Source of the DNA: Aerococcus suis
Lineage (GTDB): Bacteria > Bacillota > Bacilli > Lactobacillales > Aerococcaceae
Reading direction: 5' to 3'
Length of the DNA stretch: 64,000 nucleotides
Assembly (NCBI RefSeq): GCF_900176325.1
Contig: NZ_FWXK01000001.1
Span: 93,770 to 157,769, forward strand
Both the position numbers and the translations under genes were made by a program. Positions 13,783 through 23,849 of this stretch are shown here, piece after piece (within the stretch, counting starts at the first letter, position 1; each line of letters starts with the position of its first letter). The notes under the pieces are model-generated. The model had not been told where the DNA came from, made no database searches, and was given only the letters and a program-made list of their open reading frames with translations.

Positions 13783-16476
13783 TTGAATTGGATAACAAAA
13801 ATAACGCAACAATATCATCGACACCCCAAACGATGGCTGTTAACTCTCGCCTTTCTTATTCCCATCATCTTAATGGGTGGCTTATTTATCGGTATGAAAG
13901 TCTTTCCATTTGGTGACAATACCCTGTTAACAGTAGACCTTGGCCAACAATATTTAGACTTTTATCAATATTATCGTCATTTTATCTTATCTGGATTTGA
14001 GGGTGGCTTCTACTCATTCAGTAAAAGTATTGGTGGCGAGATGCTAGGAACCTGGGCGTATTATTTAATGAGTCCATTTATGTTAGTGACTTTACTATTC
14101 CCAGGTAGTTGGTTATCAGTCGCTATTGCCGTGATGATTTTACTAAAACTAGGTACCGCAGCTTGGAGCTTCCAATGGATGTTAGGAAAAATTTATGATG
14201 ATTATAATTGTCGCTCATTAACTTTTTCTCTTATGTATGCTTTTATTGGCTATTTAAGTGCCAATCAGTTAAATATTATGTGGTTAGATGGGGTGATTTT
14301 TCTTCCTCTGGTGATTTGGGGAATCGATGAGATATTTACTCACCAACGTTGGTGGATATATACACTCAGTTTAGCTCTCGTTTTATGGACAAACTACTAC
14401 ATCGGCTACATGGTATGTCTTTTTTCCATTCTCTTTTTTATTTATCGATTCGTCGTTTCAATTCCTAAATCACTAGCTAAAATTAAAAAACAAGCCTTTA
14501 ATGTCCTTCAACCAGTTGGACATTTCATCATCGGATCACTATTAGCAGGAGGACTAGCAGCTATCCTCTTAGTTCCCACCTTCCAATCCTTGTTGGCCAG
14601 TAAAGGGGCACACGAAACGGCATCACTTGATTGGAGTCTAGCTTATCCATTTCAAGAACTACTAAGCAAATGGGTGATTGGATCCTTTAATTTCAATCAA
14701 ATGCCAGATGGTCTCCCTAACTTATTTGTTGGCTCTTTAGGAATCGTTATGTTACTTACTTTTTTAATGAATCGTCGCTTTCATTGGAGCGAACGGTTCA
14801 CTGCATTAAGTATTATTAGTGTGTTATTAGTCTCAATGAATACCAACGCATTGAATACCATTTGGCATGGCTGGCAAGATCCCATCTGGTATCCTTATCG
14901 TTTCTCATTTGTGTGGAGCTTTTTTGTTCTATATATTGGTTATCGTCAGTACCGCCAATTATCACTCCCTAAACTTCGCCAAAATGTAATGGTTTTATTA
15001 TTGGGGACAATAGCAACCCTCTATCTACTAATGCATGTCGATCAGTTTGACGAAATTAACGCGTTAAAAATTTGCATTAGTTTTGGCTTATTCACTATTG
15101 TCTTACTCCTCACTTTATTAATATCTGAATATCCTAGAAGTATTGTTTGGCTTCTACTTGCCTTAACACTCGGTGAAGGATTTGCGAATAGTGCATTAAA
15201 TGTGACGTCTCTTGGTTATCTTGATTATGAAGATGTTGTTGACCCTATTATTGCGACTCAACCTACCATCAACACGTTACGTCCTAACGATCAAGAGTTT
15301 TATCGAATCACTAAAGATTACCAACGAACCAAAAATGATGGCCTACATATGGGGTATTATGATTTAAATCAATTTAATTCAACTTTAGAAAAAGGAACAA
15401 CTGAATTATTTAAATCACTTGGCTTTCCAAGTAGCGAAGTTTTCACCAACTACACGACAGGTACGCTATTTACTGACGATTTCTTTGGGGTTCGCTATAT
15501 GCTCGTTCAAGATCAGCTATTACCTAATCCTATCAATGGTAAATTAATTAGCACCCGATACGATTGGCTAAGTCAGCCAATAACACAATCTAACGACAGT
15601 GAAATTGTCACCGAAAACGAAGATGCTTTAGGTCTTGGATTTAGCGTTAACGAGGATTTTGCTAAACTAAAAACGGAAGATATTTATCCAATCTATTTAC
15701 AGGATCAAATGTTACAAGCCCTCGATAATAAGGCAGAAATGTCGTCAGAAAATAGTCAAACACAATATTTCTCATTAGAAAATTTTCAAAGCTTAGACTT
15801 GGAAAATGTCGCCACTGACGATCCGAATCACGTAGCAGCAACTTATAGTCGGGAAAAAGATAATGAAAGAAGTCTGATTACCGTAACGTTTACTCCTGAT
15901 ACAGATGACGCCTACTACTTAACCGTGCCACAATATTTAAATGATGATGACGTTACTTTTTTCCTTAATGGTCAAGAATTAGCATATGATGATACGTTTA
16001 GAAGTACGCAAATTTACAATTTAGCCAATAATGATGTTGGACAAACGAAAACATTTCAAATCGAAATTTTAGCAGATGCGGTTACCTTACAAGATTTTAA
16101 CCTGTATCGCCTCGATAAAAAACGAGTAGCTAATGTGGCGACTCAATTGAAAGACCATTCCCTACAACTTGATCATTTTAGTAATAGCCGTTTTTCAGGA
16201 AAAATCACAACGACTCACTCTAATGACTATTTATTGCTTACATTCCCTTATAGTAAAGGATGGCATTTTAAAGTTGATGGAAATCCGGTGACAGCTAAAC
16301 CACATTTTAGTGGTGGCCTCACCTTACTTCCGTTATCAAAACCAGGAACTCATGAAGTAACGGCATATTATCGTCCCCCTGGATTAATACTTGGGGGCCT
16401 CATTACCATTAGTTCAATCGTTATCATAGGTGGCCATTCCTATTATTACCGTAAGCATCAAAAAAGCTGGAGATAA
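13783..16476 (+). CDS. YfhO-family membrane glycosyltransferase
   Basis: An 897-residue polytopic protein with about 13 membrane helices in the first 470 residues, a large extracytoplasmic domain (~480-860) and a final C-terminal helix. The early DLGQQYLDFYQYYR segment with the acidic loop and the SKSIGGEMLGTWAYY segment are typical of YfhO proteins. In Bacillus and Listeria relatives these enzymes transfer sugars onto teichoic acids outside the membrane from a lipid carrier. The start is TTG at 13783, with GTGGAG about 11 nt upstream. The donor and target here are not known. Confidence 0.88.
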   Translation: MNWITKITQQYHRHPKRWLLTLAFLIPIILMGGLFIGMKVFPFGDNTLLTVDLGQQYLDFYQYYRHFILSGFEGGFYSFSKSIGGEMLGTWAYYLMSPFMLVTLLFPGSWLSVAIAVMILLKLGTAAWSFQWMLGKIYDDYNCRSLTFSLMYAFIGYLSANQLNIMWLDGVIFLPLVIWGIDEIFTHQRWWIYTLSLALVLWTNYYIGYMVCLFSILFFIYRFVVSIPKSLAKIKKQAFNVLQPVGHFIIGSLLAGGLAAILLVPTFQSLLASKGAHETASLDWSLAYPFQELLSKWVIGSFNFNQMPDGLPNLFVGSLGIVMLLTFLMNRRFHWSERFTALSIISVLLVSMNTNALNTIWHGWQDPIWYPYRFSFVWSFFVLYIGYRQYRQLSLPKLRQNVMVLLLGTIATLYLLMHVDQFDEINALKICISFGLFTIVLLLTLLISEYPRSIVWLLLALTLGEGFANSALNVTSLGYLDYEDVVDPIIATQPTINTLRPNDQEFYRITKDYQRTKNDGLHMGYYDLNQFNSTLEKGTTELFKSLGFPSSEVFTNYTTGTLFTDDFFGVRYMLVQDQLLPNPINGKLISTRYDWLSQPITQSNDSEIVTENEDALGLGFSVNEDFAKLKTEDIYPIYLQDQMLQALDNKAEMSSENSQTQYFSLENFQSLDLENVATDDPNHVAATYSREKDNERSLITVTFTPDTDDAYYLTVPQYLNDDDVTFFLNGQELAYDDTFRSTQIYNLANNDVGQTKTFQIEILADAVTLQDFNLYRLDKKRVANVATQLKDHSLQLDHFSNSRFSGKITTTHSNDYLLLTFPYSKGWHFKVDGNPVTAKPHFSGGLTLLPLSKPGTHEVTAYYRPPGLILGGLITISSIVIIGGHSYYYRKHQKSWR

Positions 16477-16489
16477 TCTCCAGCTTTTT
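16461..16489. terminator. Bidirectional terminator between yfhO-like and LLM genes
   Basis: AAAAAGCTGGAGAT is followed by ATCTCCAGCTTTTT, a near-perfect palindrome. It overlaps the last codons of the plus-strand gene and ends 1-2 nt from the minus-strand stop. Confidence 0.9.
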
Positions 16490-16490
16490 C

Positions 16491-17495
16491 TTATCTATTC
16501 TTGCCAAATGCTTCTGCTAAAATTTCCACAGCATGCTTTCTAGCTGCAAAGCTAGGCATAAGGGGAATGAGTAGTAACTCGTCGGCTAGAGCATCTTCAG
16601 CTAGCGTCTGTAATTGAGTAGCCACATCATCCGTCTGCCCGACAATCATCCGTGTCCGATTACGTTCTATTTTTTCTCTATCACTAGCGGATACTTCATA
16701 GGCATTAGCTGTTGATACGGATGGAAAACGATTAAATTCTTCAAAATTATCTTTTCCTAATAACCAAATATCTAAGGCTTTCGCATAATCTTTAGCCTCT
16801 TCTTCATCATCTGATACCGTTAAAAATGGAGCGATTGTCACTTGGGGCTCACTGAGAAACTCAGATGGTTTAAAGTTTTCACGATAAACCCGACAAGCGG
16901 AACGACAAACTTGTAACTTGTCATCACTAGCATAAGGGAATAAGCCAAAAGTATAGCCAATCCCTAATTCAGCAGCCATTCGTGCTGATTTTACACTCGA
17001 TGATAGCACAAACAATTCAGGCTGAGCAGCCGTCTGAGGGTTAGCTACAACTCCTTGGTTATCCCCTTGGCCTAGTAGATAGTTTTGAATCGCTTCAATT
17101 TGAGATTGATAATCAAAGGACGCCTTATCAGCCGTATTTAATGCCCGCTGAACGGGACGAATGCCAAATGTATTTCCCATACCTAAGTCAACTCGACCAG
17201 GATGTATAGCTGATAACATCCGGAAATTTTCAGCGACTTTAAGAGGCGCATAGTGCGGAAGCATCACTCCACCAGATCCAATACGCAAGTTTTCAGTTTG
17301 GTTTAACAATTCACTAATTAAAATTTCAGGAGTTGATGAGGCGAATGCTGGAACATTATGGTGTTCAGCGACCCAAAAGCGTTTGAATCCATTTTGATCA
17401 CAAACTTTTGCTAATTCAATGGTTTCTTGAATCGCTTCGTCAGCATTACGTCCCTCATTAATTTGAGCATAATCTAAAATACTTAACTCAACCAT
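16491..17495 (-). CDS. Luciferase-like flavin monooxygenase, MsnO8 family
   Basis: A 334-residue bacterial-luciferase-like (LLM class) TIM-barrel protein that should use reduced FMN or F420-type cofactor chemistry. Features are RFWVAEHHNVPAFASSTPE near residue 40 and GSGGVMLPHYAPLKVAE near residue 75. It is the last gene of the GcvH-L/macrodomain/SirTM/LplA2 operon, only 2 nt after lplA. A luciferase-like oxidoreductase is a known companion of this operon in staphylococci and streptococci, but its substrate is not established. Confidence 0.88.
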   Translation of the reverse strand: MVELSILDYAQINEGRNADEAIQETIELAKVCDQNGFKRFWVAEHHNVPAFASSTPEILISELLNQTENLRIGSGGVMLPHYAPLKVAENFRMLSAIHPGRVDLGMGNTFGIRPVQRALNTADKASFDYQSQIEAIQNYLLGQGDNQGVVANPQTAAQPELFVLSSSVKSARMAAELGIGYTFGLFPYASDDKLQVCRSACRVYRENFKPSEFLSEPQVTIAPFLTVSDDEEEAKDYAKALDIWLLGKDNFEEFNRFPSVSTANAYEVSASDREKIERNRTRMIVGQTDDVATQLQTLAEDALADELLLIPLMPSFAARKHAVEILAEAFGKNR

Positions 17496-17497
17496 TA

Positions 17498-18553
17498 TTA
17501 TTCCTCACTCTCTTGGGAAGGAATCGCTAGAATAAAACGAATAAGGTCTTCAGCATCTAAGCCACTAATATACTCATCAACAGTCGTATCAGCTAAGGCT
17601 TCGCGTAATGCACTCGCTTCTAATTTGGTGCCAATCAATTTATCTTCTAATTCTGCTTTTGGTTTAACACCGAAGAAATCCCCATTAATTTGAATAGCTT
17701 CAATCCGTGCATGTGTAATCGTTAACCCAATATGTAGTGTTCCAACACCATCAAATCGTTGTTGCACTTGATAATCAAAGGTTTCAAAGTGACCATAAGT
17801 CCAATCCCAATTATTGTACATATTATTTGCTATCTCATCGATTGCTTGCCAATCTTCATCTGTTAATACATAACGTTTGGCATCGTCTAAGTCATCAACT
17901 TCTAACAATTCTTTTAAAATAAATTCTGTAAATTTCCATACTGAAATATCTTGATATTCAGGATCTAGAGCATCGCGTAATGTACCGACACGTTGACGAA
18001 CCGATTTCACACCGTGTGAAGAAATCTTCTTTTGATTTGGTTTTAATACGGTATTCATCACTTCATAATCAGGATCAAGCAATAAAGAATAACCAGCATA
18101 AACACGATCATGGACGATGGTCATTGCAGCACCAGAGATTTTTTTATCATTTAACGTTAAATCGTTACGACCTTTTTGCTCTAATCCTTCCACACCCATC
18201 TTTTCTAATACACGAATAATAGGTGCATATAATTTGTCATATTGGCCAAAGATATTGGTATCCCCATCATTTGGCACTAAGTAACAAAAACTCATATTTT
18301 TGTCATCAAGATAAACAGCGCCACCGCCCGTTTCACGGCGAACTAAACCAATATTATGTTCATCCATATAAGGTTGGTTTACTTCTTCATAAGCATTTTG
18401 ATTCAATCCAATTTGAACAGAGGGATTGACCATATAAGGGAAAATGATTTTATCATCTAAAAAAATATTATCGCGAACATAGGCTTGAATCGCCATAGTT
18501 GTTCCTTGGTCGTATACCCATTCACCATTACGTATTGGTTCAATTAAATACAT
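17498..18553 (-). CDS. lplA: Lipoate--protein ligase LplA2 of the SirTM operon
   Basis: A 351-residue lipoate ligase that activates lipoate with ATP and attaches it to a target lysine. The lipoate/adenylate-binding RRETGGGAVY is near residue 72, the catalytic lysine region reads LNDKKISGAAM, and a C-terminal accessory domain (~260-340) is present. In the related staphylococcal and streptococcal operons, LplA2 lipoylates GcvH-L as a requirement for ADP-ribosylation. It starts 2 nt after the SirTM stop. Housekeeping lipoylation could also use it, since no other ligase is in view. Confidence 0.92.
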   Translation of the reverse strand: MYLIEPIRNGEWVYDQGTTMAIQAYVRDNIFLDDKIIFPYMVNPSVQIGLNQNAYEEVNQPYMDEHNIGLVRRETGGGAVYLDDKNMSFCYLVPNDGDTNIFGQYDKLYAPIIRVLEKMGVEGLEQKGRNDLTLNDKKISGAAMTIVHDRVYAGYSLLLDPDYEVMNTVLKPNQKKISSHGVKSVRQRVGTLRDALDPEYQDISVWKFTEFILKELLEVDDLDDAKRYVLTDEDWQAIDEIANNMYNNWDWTYGHFETFDYQVQQRFDGVGTLHIGLTITHARIEAIQINGDFFGVKPKAELEDKLIGTKLEASALREALADTTVDEYISGLDAEDLIRFILAIPSQESEE

Positions 18554-18555
18554 GA

Positions 18556-19440
18556 TTATCCTTCTTTCATTTGTTTCACTGTTGCTAATGTTTCGGCAAT
18601 ATCTTCAGTAATGCGAATTGCTTGTGATTTGGCATCTGCTGAAATACGATAAGGCTTTTGATTCATCGTCACATAAAGTGCTTGAGGGTTATTAGCCGTC
18701 CATTTTTGGAACGGATGACGAATGAATTGAGGTGTAGTCATACCAACTCCAATTTCTAAATATAAAATTTTATCGGCTTCATGAGCGTTTAAAAAATCTT
18801 GATACCGTTTATTTTGGGCATGCCAATCTGCATCTTCCACCATCCCACGCTCGGCATCGCGTTTATTTACTTCTAATGGAGCGCCACATTTAGGGCAATG
18901 TGGGACTAATTCACTCGGCACTTTCATATTCTCTTGTTCAGCAACCATTTGACGAACGAGTGCTTCATCTTGATACGTTTGTTGATGACAAAATTGCGAG
19001 CATTGCCATAATCCATACTCTCCTTGAATACGGAAAACTTTGTTCATATCATAATTAGCTGCATAAAAAGCATTATCAGCGTTGGTGGTAATCACATGAT
19101 ACGTCTTATCTCGTAGAATAGATTTCAAATCAAGATAGGCTTGTCCTACCGGTTGATCAAAGTAATTTAATAAAGCAAATCGACTTTGAAAAGCCCAATA
19201 CTCTTCCCAATCTTCAAAATCAGATAAAAATGCTTGCAGCATATCATAATAGTGATATTTCTCAATAAAATCTGGAAACGCCTCTTCAAAACGAGGGCCA
19301 GCATAAGTAAAACCGGTTGCAGCTGACATACCAGCCCCAATACCAACAACAATCGTTTCTGCTTCATCAATTGCTTGTTTTAATATTTCTGGTTGGCTAG
19401 CTTTCATATCAATAGCCCAATCGATTGCTAAATTCGTCAT
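18556..19440 (-). CDS. Class M sirtuin (SirTM), protein ADP-ribosyltransferase
   Basis: A 294-residue sirtuin-fold enzyme. The NAD site [12 protein letters not shown] is at residues 33-44, and the zinc cysteines are C147, C151, C182 and C185. The histidine used by deacetylating sirtuins is replaced: the motif reads FRIQGEYG with Gln139. Asn120, Gln139 and Arg194 match, with a constant offset of 2, the residues I recall as catalytic in Streptococcus pyogenes SirTM (N118, Q137, R192). Known family members transfer ADP-ribose to lipoylated GcvH-L. Together with the adjacent macrodomain, GcvH-L and LplA2 genes, this makes the assignment strong. Confidence 0.95.
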
Positions 19441-19449
19441 AATTACTCC

Positions 19450-20247
19450 TTAATCATCTAATAACTTTTCATAAATTTCTCTATCTTTATCTAAAAAGAC
19501 ATTGAAAACTACTTTCAAATCGCTACCTGTCGTTCTTAAGTACTCTTCAACAGTTTCAATCGCAACTTTCGCCGCCTCTTCATTTGGATAATGAAACTCA
19601 CCTGTTGAAATACAACAAAAAGCCAGACTATCTAATTGATGGTCATCTGCTACTTTTAAACAAGAGCGGTACGCAGAACGAAGTAAATCTTCCTTGATTG
19701 GAGTGACACCCCTGGAGTCGATATAAGGGCCAACCGTATGTAAGACATATTGACTAGGTAAATTGTATCCTGAGGTAATCCGTGCTTTCCCCATTGGTTC
19801 TTTATGTCCTAATTTCATCATAAATTCATGACAAGCTAACCGTAATTGAATACCCGCACGTGTATGAATAGCATTATCGATACAATCATGATTAGCTTGT
19901 GTACACCCAAGCATATCTGAATTAGCTGCATTCACAATACCATCAGTCGCTAACAGTGTAATATCGCCTTGCCACAAATATAATTGAGATTTAACCGGTG
20001 AAAGCTCTGAGAAGTTAACCACGTTTCGTCGCGTCAATAATTCTTGTAATACAGCATCTTGTCTCATTAAAAAGTCATCAGAGACCGGTTTTGGCGGACG
20101 GATATTACAATACCCACGAAAGATTTCATATTTATCATCAATTGTTTCATTCGGATATGAACTAAAGAACTCTCTATGTTCAGGCATTTCAGCTGACAAA
20201 TCAGTCATTAGATGGTCAAGTTCTCTTAATAGCGTTTGGTCATTCAT
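19450..20247 (-). CDS. Zinc-dependent macrodomain ADP-ribosylhydrolase of the SirTM operon
   Basis: A 265-residue protein with an N-terminal helical extension (residues 1-85) and a macrodomain. The ADP-ribose-binding GDITLLATDGIVNAANS begins near residue 93. Next comes LGCTQANHDCIDNAIH, the Cys/His pattern of the zinc-containing macrodomains linked to SirTM. A C-terminal GEFHYPN loop (residues ~212-218) supports the same subgroup. Family members remove ADP-ribose from GcvH-L, reversing the SirTM reaction. It lies 9 nt upstream of the SirTM gene and 71 nt downstream of GcvH-L, with a hairpin in that gap. Confidence 0.94.
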   Translation of the reverse strand: MNDQTLLRELDHLMTDLSAEMPEHREFFSSYPNETIDDKYEIFRGYCNIRPPKPVSDDFLMRQDAVLQELLTRRNVVNFSELSPVKSQLYLWQGDITLLATDGIVNAANSDMLGCTQANHDCIDNAIHTRAGIQLRLACHEFMMKLGHKEPMGKARITSGYNLPSQYVLHTVGPYIDSRGVTPIKEDLLRSAYRSCLKVADDHQLDSLAFCCISTGEFHYPNEEAAKVAIETVEEYLRTTGSDLKVVFNVFLDKDREIYEKLLDD

Positions 20248-20267
20248 AATGTTCTCCTTAATAAAAG

Positions 20268-20306
20268 AAGGATTATAGCGACAGTTATCCCGTCACCATA
20301 ATCCTT
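20268..20306 (-). terminator. Weak attenuator-like hairpin between GcvH-L and macrodomain genes
   Basis: On the minus strand AAGGATTAT pairs with ATAATCCTT, extended by GTGAC/GTCGC pairing across a short loop, and CTTTTA follows. The U-tract is poor. It may reduce read-through so that GcvH-L is made in excess, or mark an RNA-processing site. Confidence 0.55.
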
Positions 20307-20318
20307 ACTTGTGATTCA

Positions 20319-20651
20319 TTATGCGTCTTCTAAGCCAGCAAAAGCTTCTTCATCAACATCTGTTAGTTTAACTAACCAATTTTCTTCTTGTTTAGCAGAG
20401 TTTAATAAGCTAGGTTCAGAAACAGCTGCTTCATTACGAGCAGAAACTGTACCATTTAATGGGCTTAAAATTTCCATTACTGTTTTAGAAGCTTCGATAC
20501 TTGCTAATGAGTCATCTTTTTTAACACTTTCTTCATCAGAAAAGTCTACATAACCCACTGTTCCAATATCGTCTTGTAATTCGGGAGTCATACTTACAAT
20601 ATATTCATTATCTTGTTTATCAATAAATAAGTAATTTGCGCGTTTTGTCAT
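20319..20651 (-). CDS. GcvH-L, lipoyl-domain substrate of the SirTM system
   Basis: A 110-residue lipoyl-domain protein related to glycine cleavage H protein. I place the start at 20651 ([11 protein letters not shown]), because AAGGAG lies at the right distance; the frame is open further upstream. Lys56 in [12 protein letters not shown] is the lipoylation site. Asp27 ([14 protein letters not shown]) matches the residue I recall as the ADP-ribosylation site in the S. pyogenes homologue. No gcvP or gcvT is in view, and the order GcvH-L, macrodomain, SirTM, LplA2 is the diagnostic operon, so it is not the ordinary glycine cleavage H protein. Confidence 0.94.
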
Positions 20652-20724
20652 TAAAAAAACTCCTTTCTTTAAACTACCGGTCCTCATTCTAACAAATTTC
20701 TTTACAGTTGGCTACTGTATTAGT

Positions 20725-20752
20725 TTGAAAATTTCTGTGTTATATTTAATAT
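20725..20752 (+). promoter_or_regulatory. Putative promoter of the OYE-family gene
   Basis: TTGAAA (20725-20730) and TAATAT (20747-20752) are 16 nt apart, about 30 nt before the ATG. It lies in the 130-nt divergent region shared with the GcvH-L operon, so one regulator could act on both. Confidence 0.5.
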
Positions 20753-20781
20753 AAGAATATAATAGTTAAAGGAGAATTTTT

Positions 20782-22002
20782 ATGTCGGAATTAAATCCTA
20801 AATATAAGCCATTATTCGAACCTATCACACTGGCTAACGGTGTCCAATTACCTAATCGTTATTCCTTAAATCCAATTACAACGAACGCTTCTTCTAATGA
20901 AGGATATGTAACAGAAGAAGAAACCAGATACGCTGAAAGACGTGCAAACTCTGCTCCATTCCAAGTGACAACAGCTGCTTATATCGAAGATTATGGTCAG
21001 TTGTTTGAATTTGGCCCTAGCATACGTGATGATTCCTATATTTACGGTCTATCACAACTCGCCAAAGCGATGAAGAAAGATGGGGCTAAAGCGATTATTC
21101 AATTAACCCATGCTGGTCGTTTTGCTAAAATTGCTTTAAAAGATTACGGAGCCGTTTATGGCCCTAGTGCAATGCATCTTAATACACCAATAGAACATGA
21201 TGTGATTGCTATGTCTAAACGAAAAATTAAACATGTGATTGAACAATATGCTCAAGCAACTCGTCGAGCAATTCAAGCTGGATTTGATGGTGTTGAAATT
21301 TCCAATGCCCAACGTTTACTACCACAACAATTCTTCTCTCCATTCTCTAACCAACGTGATGATGAATACGGTCCTCAATCCGTTGAAAATCGTTCACGTT
21401 TTGGTGTAGAGGTGATGGCAGCTGTCCAAAAAACGATTGATGAATACGCCAATGATGACTTTATTCTTGGTTTTAGAGGAACACCTGAAGAAACACGTGG
21501 TAATAATATTGGTTATACTGTTGATGAATTTAACGAATATTTTGACCGCATGATGGAAGTTTGTACAATTGACTACTATGCTATTGCTTCATGGGGACAT
21601 GATATTTATCTAGAAACCGTACGTGGTGACAAACATCATGGAGAACTCGTTAATAAAGTGGTAACAGATCATGTCAATGGTCGTTGTCCAGTCATTGCTA
21701 CTGGTGGAATCAATTCCCCTGAAAAAGCATTAGAGGCTTTGGAAAACGCAGATATGGTAGGAATGTCTTCTGTATTCGTAACGGAACCTGATTTTGTCAC
21801 TAAATTAGCAGCTGGAGAAGAAAATCAAATTAATTTAGATGTCACGTTAGAAGAATTACCTCAATTAAATATTCCTCAACGTGCTTTCAAAGATTTAGTT
21901 GAATTTATGGATTTAGGTGGCTCTTTACCAAAAGAAGCACGGGATGAATTTAGACGATTAGCTGACCAAGACCCTACCAGCTACTTTAAAGAATTCAAAT
22001 AA
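20782..22002 (+). CDS. Old Yellow Enzyme-family NADH:flavin oxidoreductase
   Basis: A 406-residue FMN-binding TIM-barrel of the OYE family. QLTHAGRFAK near residue 107 is the flavin/substrate signature, and VIATGGINSPEKALE near residue 300 is the phosphate-binding region. Family members reduce activated double bonds using NAD(P)H. It is transcribed away from the GcvH-L/SirTM operon from a shared intergenic region. An OYE gene is a recorded neighbour of that operon in Gram-positive pathogens, which suggests a joint redox role. Confidence 0.92.
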   Translation: MSELNPKYKPLFEPITLANGVQLPNRYSLNPITTNASSNEGYVTEEETRYAERRANSAPFQVTTAAYIEDYGQLFEFGPSIRDDSYIYGLSQLAKAMKKDGAKAIIQLTHAGRFAKIALKDYGAVYGPSAMHLNTPIEHDVIAMSKRKIKHVIEQYAQATRRAIQAGFDGVEISNAQRLLPQQFFSPFSNQRDDEYGPQSVENRSRFGVEVMAAVQKTIDEYANDDFILGFRGTPEETRGNNIGYTVDEFNEYFDRMMEVCTIDYYAIASWGHDIYLETVRGDKHHGELVNKVVTDHVNGRCPVIATGGINSPEKALEALENADMVGMSSVFVTEPDFVTKLAAGEENQINLDVTLEELPQLNIPQRAFKDLVEFMDLGGSLPKEARDEFRRLADQDPTSYFKEFK

Positions 22003-22004
22003 TT

Positions 22005-22032
22005 AAAAAAGCTGGTTTACACCAGCTTTTTT
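22005..22032. terminator. Bidirectional terminator between OYE and sodA
   Basis: AAAAAAGCTGGT, a short loop and ACCAGCTTTTTT form a symmetric hairpin 3 nt before the sodA stop. Confidence 0.9.
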
Positions 22033-22034
22033 AT

Positions 22035-22637
22035 TTACAATGCTTTTTCATATAATTCACTGACTTTATCCCAATTAACTATTTTCCAAATGGCCTTAAT
22101 ATAATCTGGGCGAACATTGCGATAATTTAAATAATAAGCATGTTCCCACACATCAACGCCAAAAATAGGAATTAATCCATCCATTAGCGGACTGTCTTGA
22201 TTAGGAGTTGATACTAACTCTAACTCCCCATTATTAACGACTAACCAAGCCCAACCAGAACCAAAGCGACCAGTCGCCACAGACAAGAATTGCTGTTGGA
22301 ATTCAGAAAATGAACCAAATGTTTGTTCAATTGCTTGTAACAACTGGCCATTAGGTTCTCCACCTTCGCCACCTAAAATTTGCCAATATAATGAATGGTT
22401 ATAATGACCACCAACATTTTGTCGAACTAGGGGGCGTATCTCCTCGGGAAGTTCATTAAAAATTCGTAATAATCCTTCAGCAGAATGATTTTTGAATTCA
22501 GTATTTTCTAAACCTTTATTTGCATTATTGACGTATGTTTGGTGATGTTTATCATGGTGTAAATGCATCGTTTCTTCATCAATAATCGGCTCAAGGGCAT
22601 CATAGCTATAAGGCAAATCTGGTAATGTAAAAGTCAT
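22035..22637 (-). CDS. sodA: Superoxide dismutase, Fe/Mn type
   Basis: A 200-residue Fe/Mn superoxide dismutase of the cytoplasm. The metal ligands are in the N-terminal [13 protein letters not shown], in [10 protein letters not shown], and in [13 protein letters not shown] (Asp and His); GSGWAWLV is the other signature. Mn use is likely in a lactic acid bacterium, but the sequence does not prove it. A promoter TTGCTT (RC of 22691-22696) and TATGAT (RC of 22667-22672), 18 nt apart, precedes a GGAGGG ribosome site. Confidence 0.96.
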
Positions 22638-23556: not shown

Positions 23557-23585
23557 AAAAAGCGGCTGATACCAGCCGCTTTTTT
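23555..23585 (+). terminator. Terminator of the DUF1189 gene
   Basis: AAGCGGCTG, a short loop and CAGCCGCTT form a strong GC stem flanked by an A-run and a T-run. Confidence 0.9.
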
Positions 23586-23624
23586 ATGCGTCGTAGTATT
23601 TTTTTGAATGATAACATCCGTTTT

Positions 23625-23847
23625 AAAAAGCGAAACTTGGTGCTTTTTCTCACACCCTGTAGTCGAGCTTGCAGAGAGGCGTCACTTTTAGGTCCAACGA
23701 CCGTGGTTAAACGTGCTTTATCGCATCCTTTTTAGTCGGGTTCGTATCGCCAGACTTAACGTTCTTTCGCATTTACCCTCTGTTTGTTTCACAAACTCCG
23801 GCTAAATGTCTCCAAGAAGTCAAGCCTAAACGGCGCTCCTCACACCC
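23625..23847 (-). repeat. Array of three hairpin repeats (A-B-A), downstream of cshB
   Basis: Read on the minus strand, unit A (23847-23729, 119 nt) begins GGGTGTGAG 2 nt after the cshB stop. It contains CGCC/GGCG and GACTT/AAGTC arms and ends GAACCCGACTA. Unit B (23728-23658) begins GGATGCGATAAAGCACG and is internally deleted to 71 nt. A third unit (23657 to about 23625) begins GGGTGTGAGAAAAAGC and is reduced to a small AAAAAGC/GCTTTTT hairpin. The same A-B-A layout occurs at 38440-38724. This fills the 264-nt gap between the two converging genes. Confidence 0.85.
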
Positions 23848-23849
23848 TT

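Follow-up and report, generated by a model that had tools for sequence, protein, structure and literature searches.

An extended SirTM operon in Aerococcus suis whose GcvH-L, the sole H protein detected in the genome, is a candidate lipoyl donor

A 64,000-nucleotide stretch of the Aerococcus suis genome (contig NZ_FWXK01000001.1, positions 93,770 to 157,769, hereafter the window) was analysed, and the six genes at window positions 16491-22002 are, with near certainty, an extended SirTM operon: gcvH-L, a macrodomain gene, sirTM and lplA2, joined by genes for the flavin oxidoreductases LLM and OYE. GcvH-L was the sole H protein detected, and the genome also encodes a pyruvate dehydrogenase (PDH) E2 and a protein labelled LipL-like because it scored under the NCBIfam LipL cut-offs. 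Since it is the sole H protein found, GcvH-L would most likely also donate the lipoyl group that the LipL-like amidotransferase transfers to PDH E2. The operon type and, for Staphylococcus aureus, a relay through GcvH-L are already in print; new here is comparative evidence on GcvH-L function, and the control of the relay by ADP-ribosylation is our own proposal.

Results

Genes of the operon

The five minus-strand genes follow one another in the transcript order gcvH-L, macrodomain, sirTM, lplA2 and LLM with gaps of 71, 9, 2 and 2 nucleotides (nt), and the OYE gene diverges on the plus strand. The original prediction, which a model had made from the letters of the DNA, had given this order with these strands and gaps, and the open reading frame (ORF) coordinates agree with it; its gene identities and its assignment to a SirTM system held in comparisons with family profiles and PDB chains. 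GcvH-L, a lipoyl carrier of 109 amino acids (aa; 20319..20648), matched PF01597 with 64.1 bits and PDB chain 5a35 with 136.1 bits. The Zn-type macrodomain, an ADP-ribosyl hydrolase (19450..20247), scored 339.1 bits against NF003163 (cut-off 272) and 283 bits against 5kiv, and SirTM, a class M sirtuin and ADP-ribosyl transferase (18556..19440), scored 436.6 bits against 5a3a. LplA2, a lipoate-protein ligase (17498..18553), matched TIGR00545 (331.4 bits, cut-off 280) and 6jom (314.8 bits). LLM, an MsnO8-type luciferase-like flavin oxidoreductase (16491..17495), matched TIGR03558 (347.5 bits, cut-off 166.95), with 4us5 as its nearest solved chain, and the OYE-family flavin oxidoreductase (20782..22002) matched PF00724 (181.6 bits, cut-off 27) and, as its closest solved relative, the S. 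aureus chain 3l5a (474.9 bits). Pfam matches were also obtained for LLM (PF00296), LplA2 (PF21948) and the macrodomain (PF01661), and SirTM had no Pfam match at E 0.001. The NCBIfam scores of LLM, LplA and the macrodomain were above the families' own cut-offs. GcvH-L (TIGR00527, 60.6 bits, cut-off 115.85) and SirTM fell far under the canonical gcvH and deacylase cut-offs, as expected for a GcvH-L type protein and a class M sirtuin.

Alignment with the Streptococcus pyogenes SirTM (5a3a) confirmed the residues that had been named from the sequence, with Asn120, Gln139 (for the deacetylase His) and Arg194 corresponding to Asn118, Gln137 and Arg192. This triad did not vary in any of the 130 aligned rows, of which 112 are distinct. 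Gln139-Gly140 (QG) stands where the catalytic HG is usual, and the macrodomain gene lies 9 nt upstream of sirTM, both features of class M. The macrodomain aligned with 5kiv over residues 10-263, including the segment with Cys115 and His120, and the Cys and His of the loop, which we take to be zinc ligands, were kept. The original prediction had proposed comparison with the S. pyogenes proteins as its check, and the alignments behind the scores given above for SirTM, GcvH-L and the macrodomain left the key residues in place.

The ATG of gcvH-L at 20648 is preceded by AAAGGAG; a longer mechanical ORF begins upstream at 20687. In S. pyogenes numbering, from the 5a35 alignment, GcvH-L carries Glu24, Asp27 and Lys56, as had been claimed for the latter two, which are Asp26 and Lys55 when counted from the ATG at 20648. 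These residues and a C-terminus that is short, unlike that of canonical GcvH, place it in the GcvH-L class, and Glu24, Asp27 and Lys56 were found in 97 of 97 distinct GcvH-L sequences from SirTM-bearing loci. Glu24, given as a GcvH-L-specific mark in PMC4518038, was dropped as such and was not used for sorting H classes because some standalone H proteins (G006, G037, G039) also carry Glu there. In LplA2, the motif RR + GGG and Lys138 were kept in 110 of 110 rows.

Lipoate inventory of the host genome

The host assembly (G000; 1.38 Mb, 13 contigs, completeness 97.94%) was searched for lipoyl proteins and for enzymes that handle lipoate. PF00364, at E 1 over the whole genome, matched twice in one PDH E2, once in a 1159-aa ORF, and in GcvH-L; the two lipoyl domains of PDH E2 ruled out GcvH-L as the only lipoylated protein of the genome. 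Three LplA-type genes were found, encoding LplA1, LplA2 and the 282-aa LipL-like protein (contig C5), and lipoyl synthase (lipA) had no genome match at E 1, where the control matched in 13 of 14 genomes. GcvH-L was the sole H protein in the whole-genome PF01597 search, and a search at E 1e-10 agreed. The remark in the original prediction that no glycine-cleavage genes accompany the operon can thus be extended genome-wide for H proteins, GcvT and GcvP not having been searched for, and its view of this less studied host as a useful case is strengthened by a sole GcvH-L alongside a LipL-like enzyme and PDH E2.

Cys152 of the LipL-like protein, presumably its catalytic Cys, was kept in all 12 rows of a first alignment and in all 24 of a larger one. 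Like the LipL relay of Bacillus subtilis and S. aureus, the genome has a ligase, an H protein, a LipL-type amidotransferase and E2. In contrast to that relay, the part of the H protein is taken here by GcvH-L, the substrate of SirTM, in place of a canonical GcvH, lipoyl synthase was not matched, and LipL lies under the NCBIfam cut-offs.

Absence of a standalone H gene

Comparisons were made in 76 genomes of the family and in 395 genomes of the order, where g1 was taken as Aerococcus and g24 as Streptococcus. SirTM loci were also drawn from a species-named collection (the best 80 of 110, confirmed), which overlaps the other genome sets and is not independent of them; among these best 80 loci the closest SirTM was that of Aerococcus kribbianus (75% identity, own-genome records possibly excluded).

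A second, non-canonical H gene beside an ftsW, YihY-like or ArsC-like gene was read in 44 of the 76 family genomes, not every genome having been fetched. GcvH-L was the sole H protein in six genomes (G000, G011, G012, G013, G016 and G025), and the standalone H gene was absent from the ftsW locus in all six; tblastn of the ftsW loci with the H proteins of five relatives returned nothing better than E 0.098. In the host, ftsW lies 241 bp after a lipoprotein gene, where the sister genome G006 carries its H gene. Genomes without another H made up 6 of the 33 with an operon GcvH-L versus 0 of 41 others (Fisher p = 0.006, shared ancestry ignored). The 33 comprise 32 with SirTM plus G028; neither group includes G063, which is 63% complete and had no H, or G070, which is 51% complete and had one weak match. 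Restricted to high-quality genomes (≥90% complete, ≤5% contaminated), the counts were 4 of 31 versus 0 of 39 (p = 0.034, again with shared ancestry ignored). In a tree built from 22 LipL rows, the state with GcvH-L alone requires at least three changes within Aerococcus, and G025 belongs to another genus.

A side observation concerns G012 and G013 (L124, L125), where a PDH cluster is found a few kb downstream of the operon; its E2 was identified by match and its two E1-like ORFs were recognised by eye.

LipL co-occurrence and lipL in the operon

LipL-like genes were found in 74 of the 76 family genomes and PDH E2 in 75, and both were present in 70 of 70 high-quality genomes. Across the 395 genomes of the order, H and LipL were both found in 291, LipL alone in 5, H alone in 1 (G276) and neither in 98, with H scored at E 1e-10 (292 genomes) and LipL by a 12-row profile at E 1e-20 (296), the Fisher test ignoring ancestry. 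All seven Streptococcus genomes with SirTM at E < 1e-100 (G168, G215, G239, G270, G325, G343, G361) had H and LipL, and none of the five with weaker SirTM (G196, G233, G289, G296, G334) had either; the two of these five whose loci were read, G196 and G296, carry a macrodomain-SirTM pair and no other operon genes.

Among the best 80 named loci, lipL was found near sirTM in 14, namely 13 of 13 Streptococcus loci and that of Atopobacter phocae. It is the first gene of the operon, from an 8 nt overlap to a 13 nt gap before OYE, and the Streptococcus order is lipL-OYE-LLM-gcvH-L-macrodomain-sirTM-lplA2. Seven further Streptococcus loci had the same layout; five of them duplicate species-named ones, and G168 and G215 are 94-96% identical to S. 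suis proteins. In a rapidly built tree with 31 LipL rows, the operon copies and those of G266 and G337 lay on one side of a branch (Shimodaira-Hasegawa-like approximate likelihood ratio test (SH-aLRT) 92, no bootstrap). The lipL gene seems to travel with the operon, since the operon copy of Atopobacter, whose genome has a second LipL elsewhere, falls within those of the streptococci. Neither PMC4518038 nor PMC11490716 uses the words 'LipL' and 'amidotransferase' in its main text, and a lipL within a SirTM operon was not found in the accessible literature covering LipL and GcvH-L, subscription papers lying mostly outside that search.

In Streptococcus phocae (L237:4110-4571) the lipL at the operon head is an ORF of only 153 aa and could be a disrupted or incomplete copy. 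In S. suis-like operons lplA2 is followed by a gene that looks amidase-like by eye (482-492 aa; L193:9883-11361, L194:2855-4303, L201:6625-8094), and in G337 such a gene directly follows lipL, the other operon genes being missing; a lipoamidase role for it is conceivable.

GcvH-L at loci without SirTM

The 101 distinct GcvH-L-like sequences comprised the 97 with SirTM at the locus and four without. In G266 (Streptococcus, 1.5 Mb) lipL and gcvH-L form a bare pair, separated by 58 nt, on an 11.8-kb contig from which the other operon genes are absent, and the genome has no SirTM at E 1e-30. In G028 (L155:4971-7230), where no SirTM was matched at E 0.001, gcvH-L, the macrodomain gene and lplA2 are kept, an eraser without a writer. 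Residues 24, 27 and 56 are Glu, Glu and Lys in G028 and Lys, Glu and Lys in G266. In operon-type GcvH-L without the writer the ADP-ribose acceptor site is altered and the lipoyl lysine retained, in two cases only.

A hairpin behind gcvH-L

The 71-nt gap between gcvH-L and the macrodomain gene holds a terminator-like hairpin on the minus strand (20268..20306) with 17 pairs followed by CTTTTATTAA, a putative attenuator; the 76 nt at 20250-20325 fold at -27.5 kcal/mol (z -6.41). A strict hairpin scan found such structures in 10 of 100 distinct gcvH-L/macrodomain junctions versus 1 of 105 macrodomain/sirTM, 0 of 91 sirTM/lplA2, 0 of 22 lplA2/LLM and 2 of 65 LLM/gcvH-L junctions. The gcvH-L/macrodomain hairpins, of unrelated sequence, came from two Ruoffia, two Nosocomiicoccus, one Jeotgalicoccus, Aerococcus G005 and G014, G047 and G025. 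With 10 of 100 junctions, an intra-operon terminator was rejected as a general feature, recurrent as it is, and gcvH-L and the macrodomain gene overlap in the Streptococcus loci that were read. Equal co-transcription of all five genes appears doubtful because the hairpin lies behind gcvH-L; it would probably act by attenuation, yielding more carrier than modifying enzymes. For SirTM operons PMC11490716 describes only coding nucleotides at this junction, in contrast to the gap with a hairpin seen here.

Active-site residues of OYE

The operon OYE has the PF00724 barrel and shares its FMN (flavin mononucleotide) barrel family with the OYE ene-reductases, from which it differs by Ser174, Gln177 and Leu179 where the canonical His, Asn and Tyr stand (alignment with 6s32). 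We take His, Asn or His, and Tyr to be the active-site residues of the ene-reductases, and this set was missing. The S. aureus chain 3l5a has the same replacements, and Ser, Gln and Leu were found in 105 of 106 OYE rows (91 distinct), the sole exception (His, Asn, Tyr) being a second OYE in L224. Judged by these residues, the operon OYE is a subfamily for which enone reduction by the usual mechanism is improbable. The replacements are compatible with activity towards the lipoyl arm, without proving it. PMC9152700, which concerns OfrA and the operon-type OfrB, does not use the words tyrosine, histidine or active site in its main text.

Flanking regions and other SirTM loci

Promoters are presumed in the divergent region between gcvH-L and OYE (20649..20781), where a promoter scan for promoter-like sites was no richer than shuffles. 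Terminator-like hairpins mark the module boundaries at 16461..16489, between LLM and a convergent YfhO-type gene, and at 22004..22033, between the convergent OYE and superoxide dismutase genes. The superoxide dismutase gene (22035-22637) adjoins OYE in A. kribbianus (L211) too. About 290 bases between two genes at 23557-23849 have no listed ORF, contain short repeated words by eye and had no Rfam match; an Rfam search of the window gave 0 matches.

Second SirTM copies (48-50% identical) were observed outside the extended operon in G005, G007, G008 and G016 (L150-L153), adjoining an LplA2-type gene in G007 and G008. A 573-aa ORF at L133:5983-7704 on the minus strand (the same locus as L213, Aerococcaceae bacterium DSM 111176) is a macrodomain-SirTM fusion with a short linker within an extended operon; such fusions have been described for fungi and other eukaryotic microbes (PMC4518038, PMC11490716). 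Lone macrodomain-SirTM pairs and the fungal Mfs1 fusions resemble the present operon in setting writer and eraser side by side, and the pairs of G196 and G296 differ from it in having no GcvH-L, LplA2, OYE, LLM or LipL adjacent.

Discussion

An extended operon including LLM and OYE has been described in Lactobacillales and Staphylococcaceae, in which ADP-ribosylation of GcvH-L depends on its lipoylation and is reversed by the macrodomain, and OYE binds GcvH-L in a lipoylation-dependent manner (PMC4518038). The original prediction under-reported this work. Induction of the operon by oxidative stress is cited in PMC4518038 and PMC11490716, and the latter also reports the catalytic zinc, notes that in some species OYE is encoded on the opposing strand, and puts forward a redox-scavenger model. 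The S. pyogenes and S. aureus operons of these two papers have the same six genes and signature residues, and the divergent OYE is as in some species; GcvH-L is also stated to be the sole H protein of S. pyogenes, and the genome studied here additionally has a LipL-like gene elsewhere. In S. aureus, lipoyl-GcvH-L was suggested as a secondary LipL substrate (PMC5049849), and a path from LplA1 to GcvH-L, LipL and E2 is stated, citing other papers, in PMC7873978, PMC13155669 and PMC8600131.

The explanation that we favour, by a modest amount when the operon, relay, gate, OYE and excess carrier are taken as a whole, runs as follows. LplA2, or the LplA1 encoded elsewhere, would put lipoate on Lys56 of GcvH-L, SirTM would add ADP-ribose to lipoyl-GcvH-L, probably at Asp27, and the Zn-macrodomain would remove it again; these steps are carried over by orthology from S. 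pyogenes and S. aureus, with whose proteins they were demonstrated. From lipoyl-GcvH-L the LipL-like enzyme of contig C5 would charge PDH E2, and that GcvH-L is the relay donor in this Aerococcus we consider rather probable. SirTM and the macrodomain may further form a NAD-dependent gate on lipoyl delivery to PDH, the least certain step: ADP-ribosylation of the sole donor would stop the transfer from LipL to PDH, the macrodomain would reopen it, and NAD status would set PDH lipoylation, with OYE acting on the lipoyl arm. The gate, drawn from sequence comparison, is tentative, and we think it possible but doubtful. Because its ene-reductase residues are replaced, the operon OYE would likely work on or with the lipoyl arm instead of enones, and because of the hairpin behind gcvH-L the carrier is probably made in excess of the four downstream enzymes.

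Several observations weigh against this explanation. The strongest point against a need for the relay comes from S. aureus, whose LplA2 reportedly attaches lipoate to E2 directly (PMC8600131, PMC7873978), a route that would leave the relay dispensable. Lipoyl-GcvH is 'absolutely required' for de novo synthesis in S. aureus (PMC5049849), so that GcvH-L is no substitute there under those conditions, and Table 1 of PMC4518038 lists for S. pyogenes neither a third nor a fourth LplA-type protein. Another H protein is kept in 27 of the 33 operon genomes, and LipL occurs without detected H in G048 (weaker H match in another search), G079, G254 (89% complete), G337 and G384. LipL-like proteins stay under the LipL cut-offs of NCBIfam; the one of the host reached 196.6 bits against NF053589 (cut-off 400) and 155.1 against NF047857 (cut-off 450), its best-scoring families, and lipL lies near sirTM in 0 of the 66 other named loci. 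That ADP-ribosylation would block LipL is something we only infer; the change of Asp27 to Glu at loci without the writer is conservative, and the relay-locus H proteins of G037 and G039 keep Glu, Asp and Lys without SirTM.

The model of the discoverers, in which lipoyl-GcvH-L is a dithiol scavenger or an OYE/LLM substrate in oxidative stress, with ADP-ribosylation as the off and the macrodomain as the on switch, does not have the PDH relay as the main role, and the two can coexist. The binding of OYE to lipoyl-GcvH-L and the cited oxidative-stress induction speak for it, as do the presence of OYE near 73 and of LLM near 72 of the best 80 SirTM loci in the named collection and the superoxide dismutase gene after OYE here and in A. 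kribbianus. Superoxide dismutase, however, is near only 1 of those 80 loci, several operons, such as those of Ruoffia and G016, have no OYE or LLM nearby, G266 keeps lipL and gcvH-L with OYE and LLM lost beside them, and lipL heads the Streptococcus operon. We regard this model as rather unlikely to be the better account. Less probable again is direct lipoylation of PDH E2 by LplA1 or LplA2, with the LipL-like gene otherwise used or vestigial and GcvH-L serving the SirTM circuit only. Both ligases are encoded here, and to the S. aureus LplA2 result can be added action of LplA1 on the E2 of 2-oxoglutarate dehydrogenase (PMC5049849); the presence of LipL-like genes in every high-quality family genome and the near-complete coupling of H and LipL across the order argue against such disuse. 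So does the Cys kept in all 24 LipL-like rows, whose catalytic role is presumed. The absence of the standalone H gene could also reflect a gap in an assembly of 13 contigs and 97.94% completeness. This is very improbable: the syntenic site is internal to its contig (C3:317520-327800 of 353852), where both ftsW and the YihY-like gene were seen but no trace of an H gene, and G016, a single contig at 99%, shows the same absence of H.

With GcvH-L as the sole H protein found, the ADP-ribose tag may control the delivery of lipoate to PDH, a central enzyme of sugar breakdown. If GcvH-L is the relay donor, the SirTM switch would gain a concrete and measurable output in PDH lipoylation, and protein ADP-ribosylation would be tied to the supply of acetyl-CoA. 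Aerococcus genomes with GcvH-L as sole H protein and streptococci with lipL in the operon would be clean places in which to ask.

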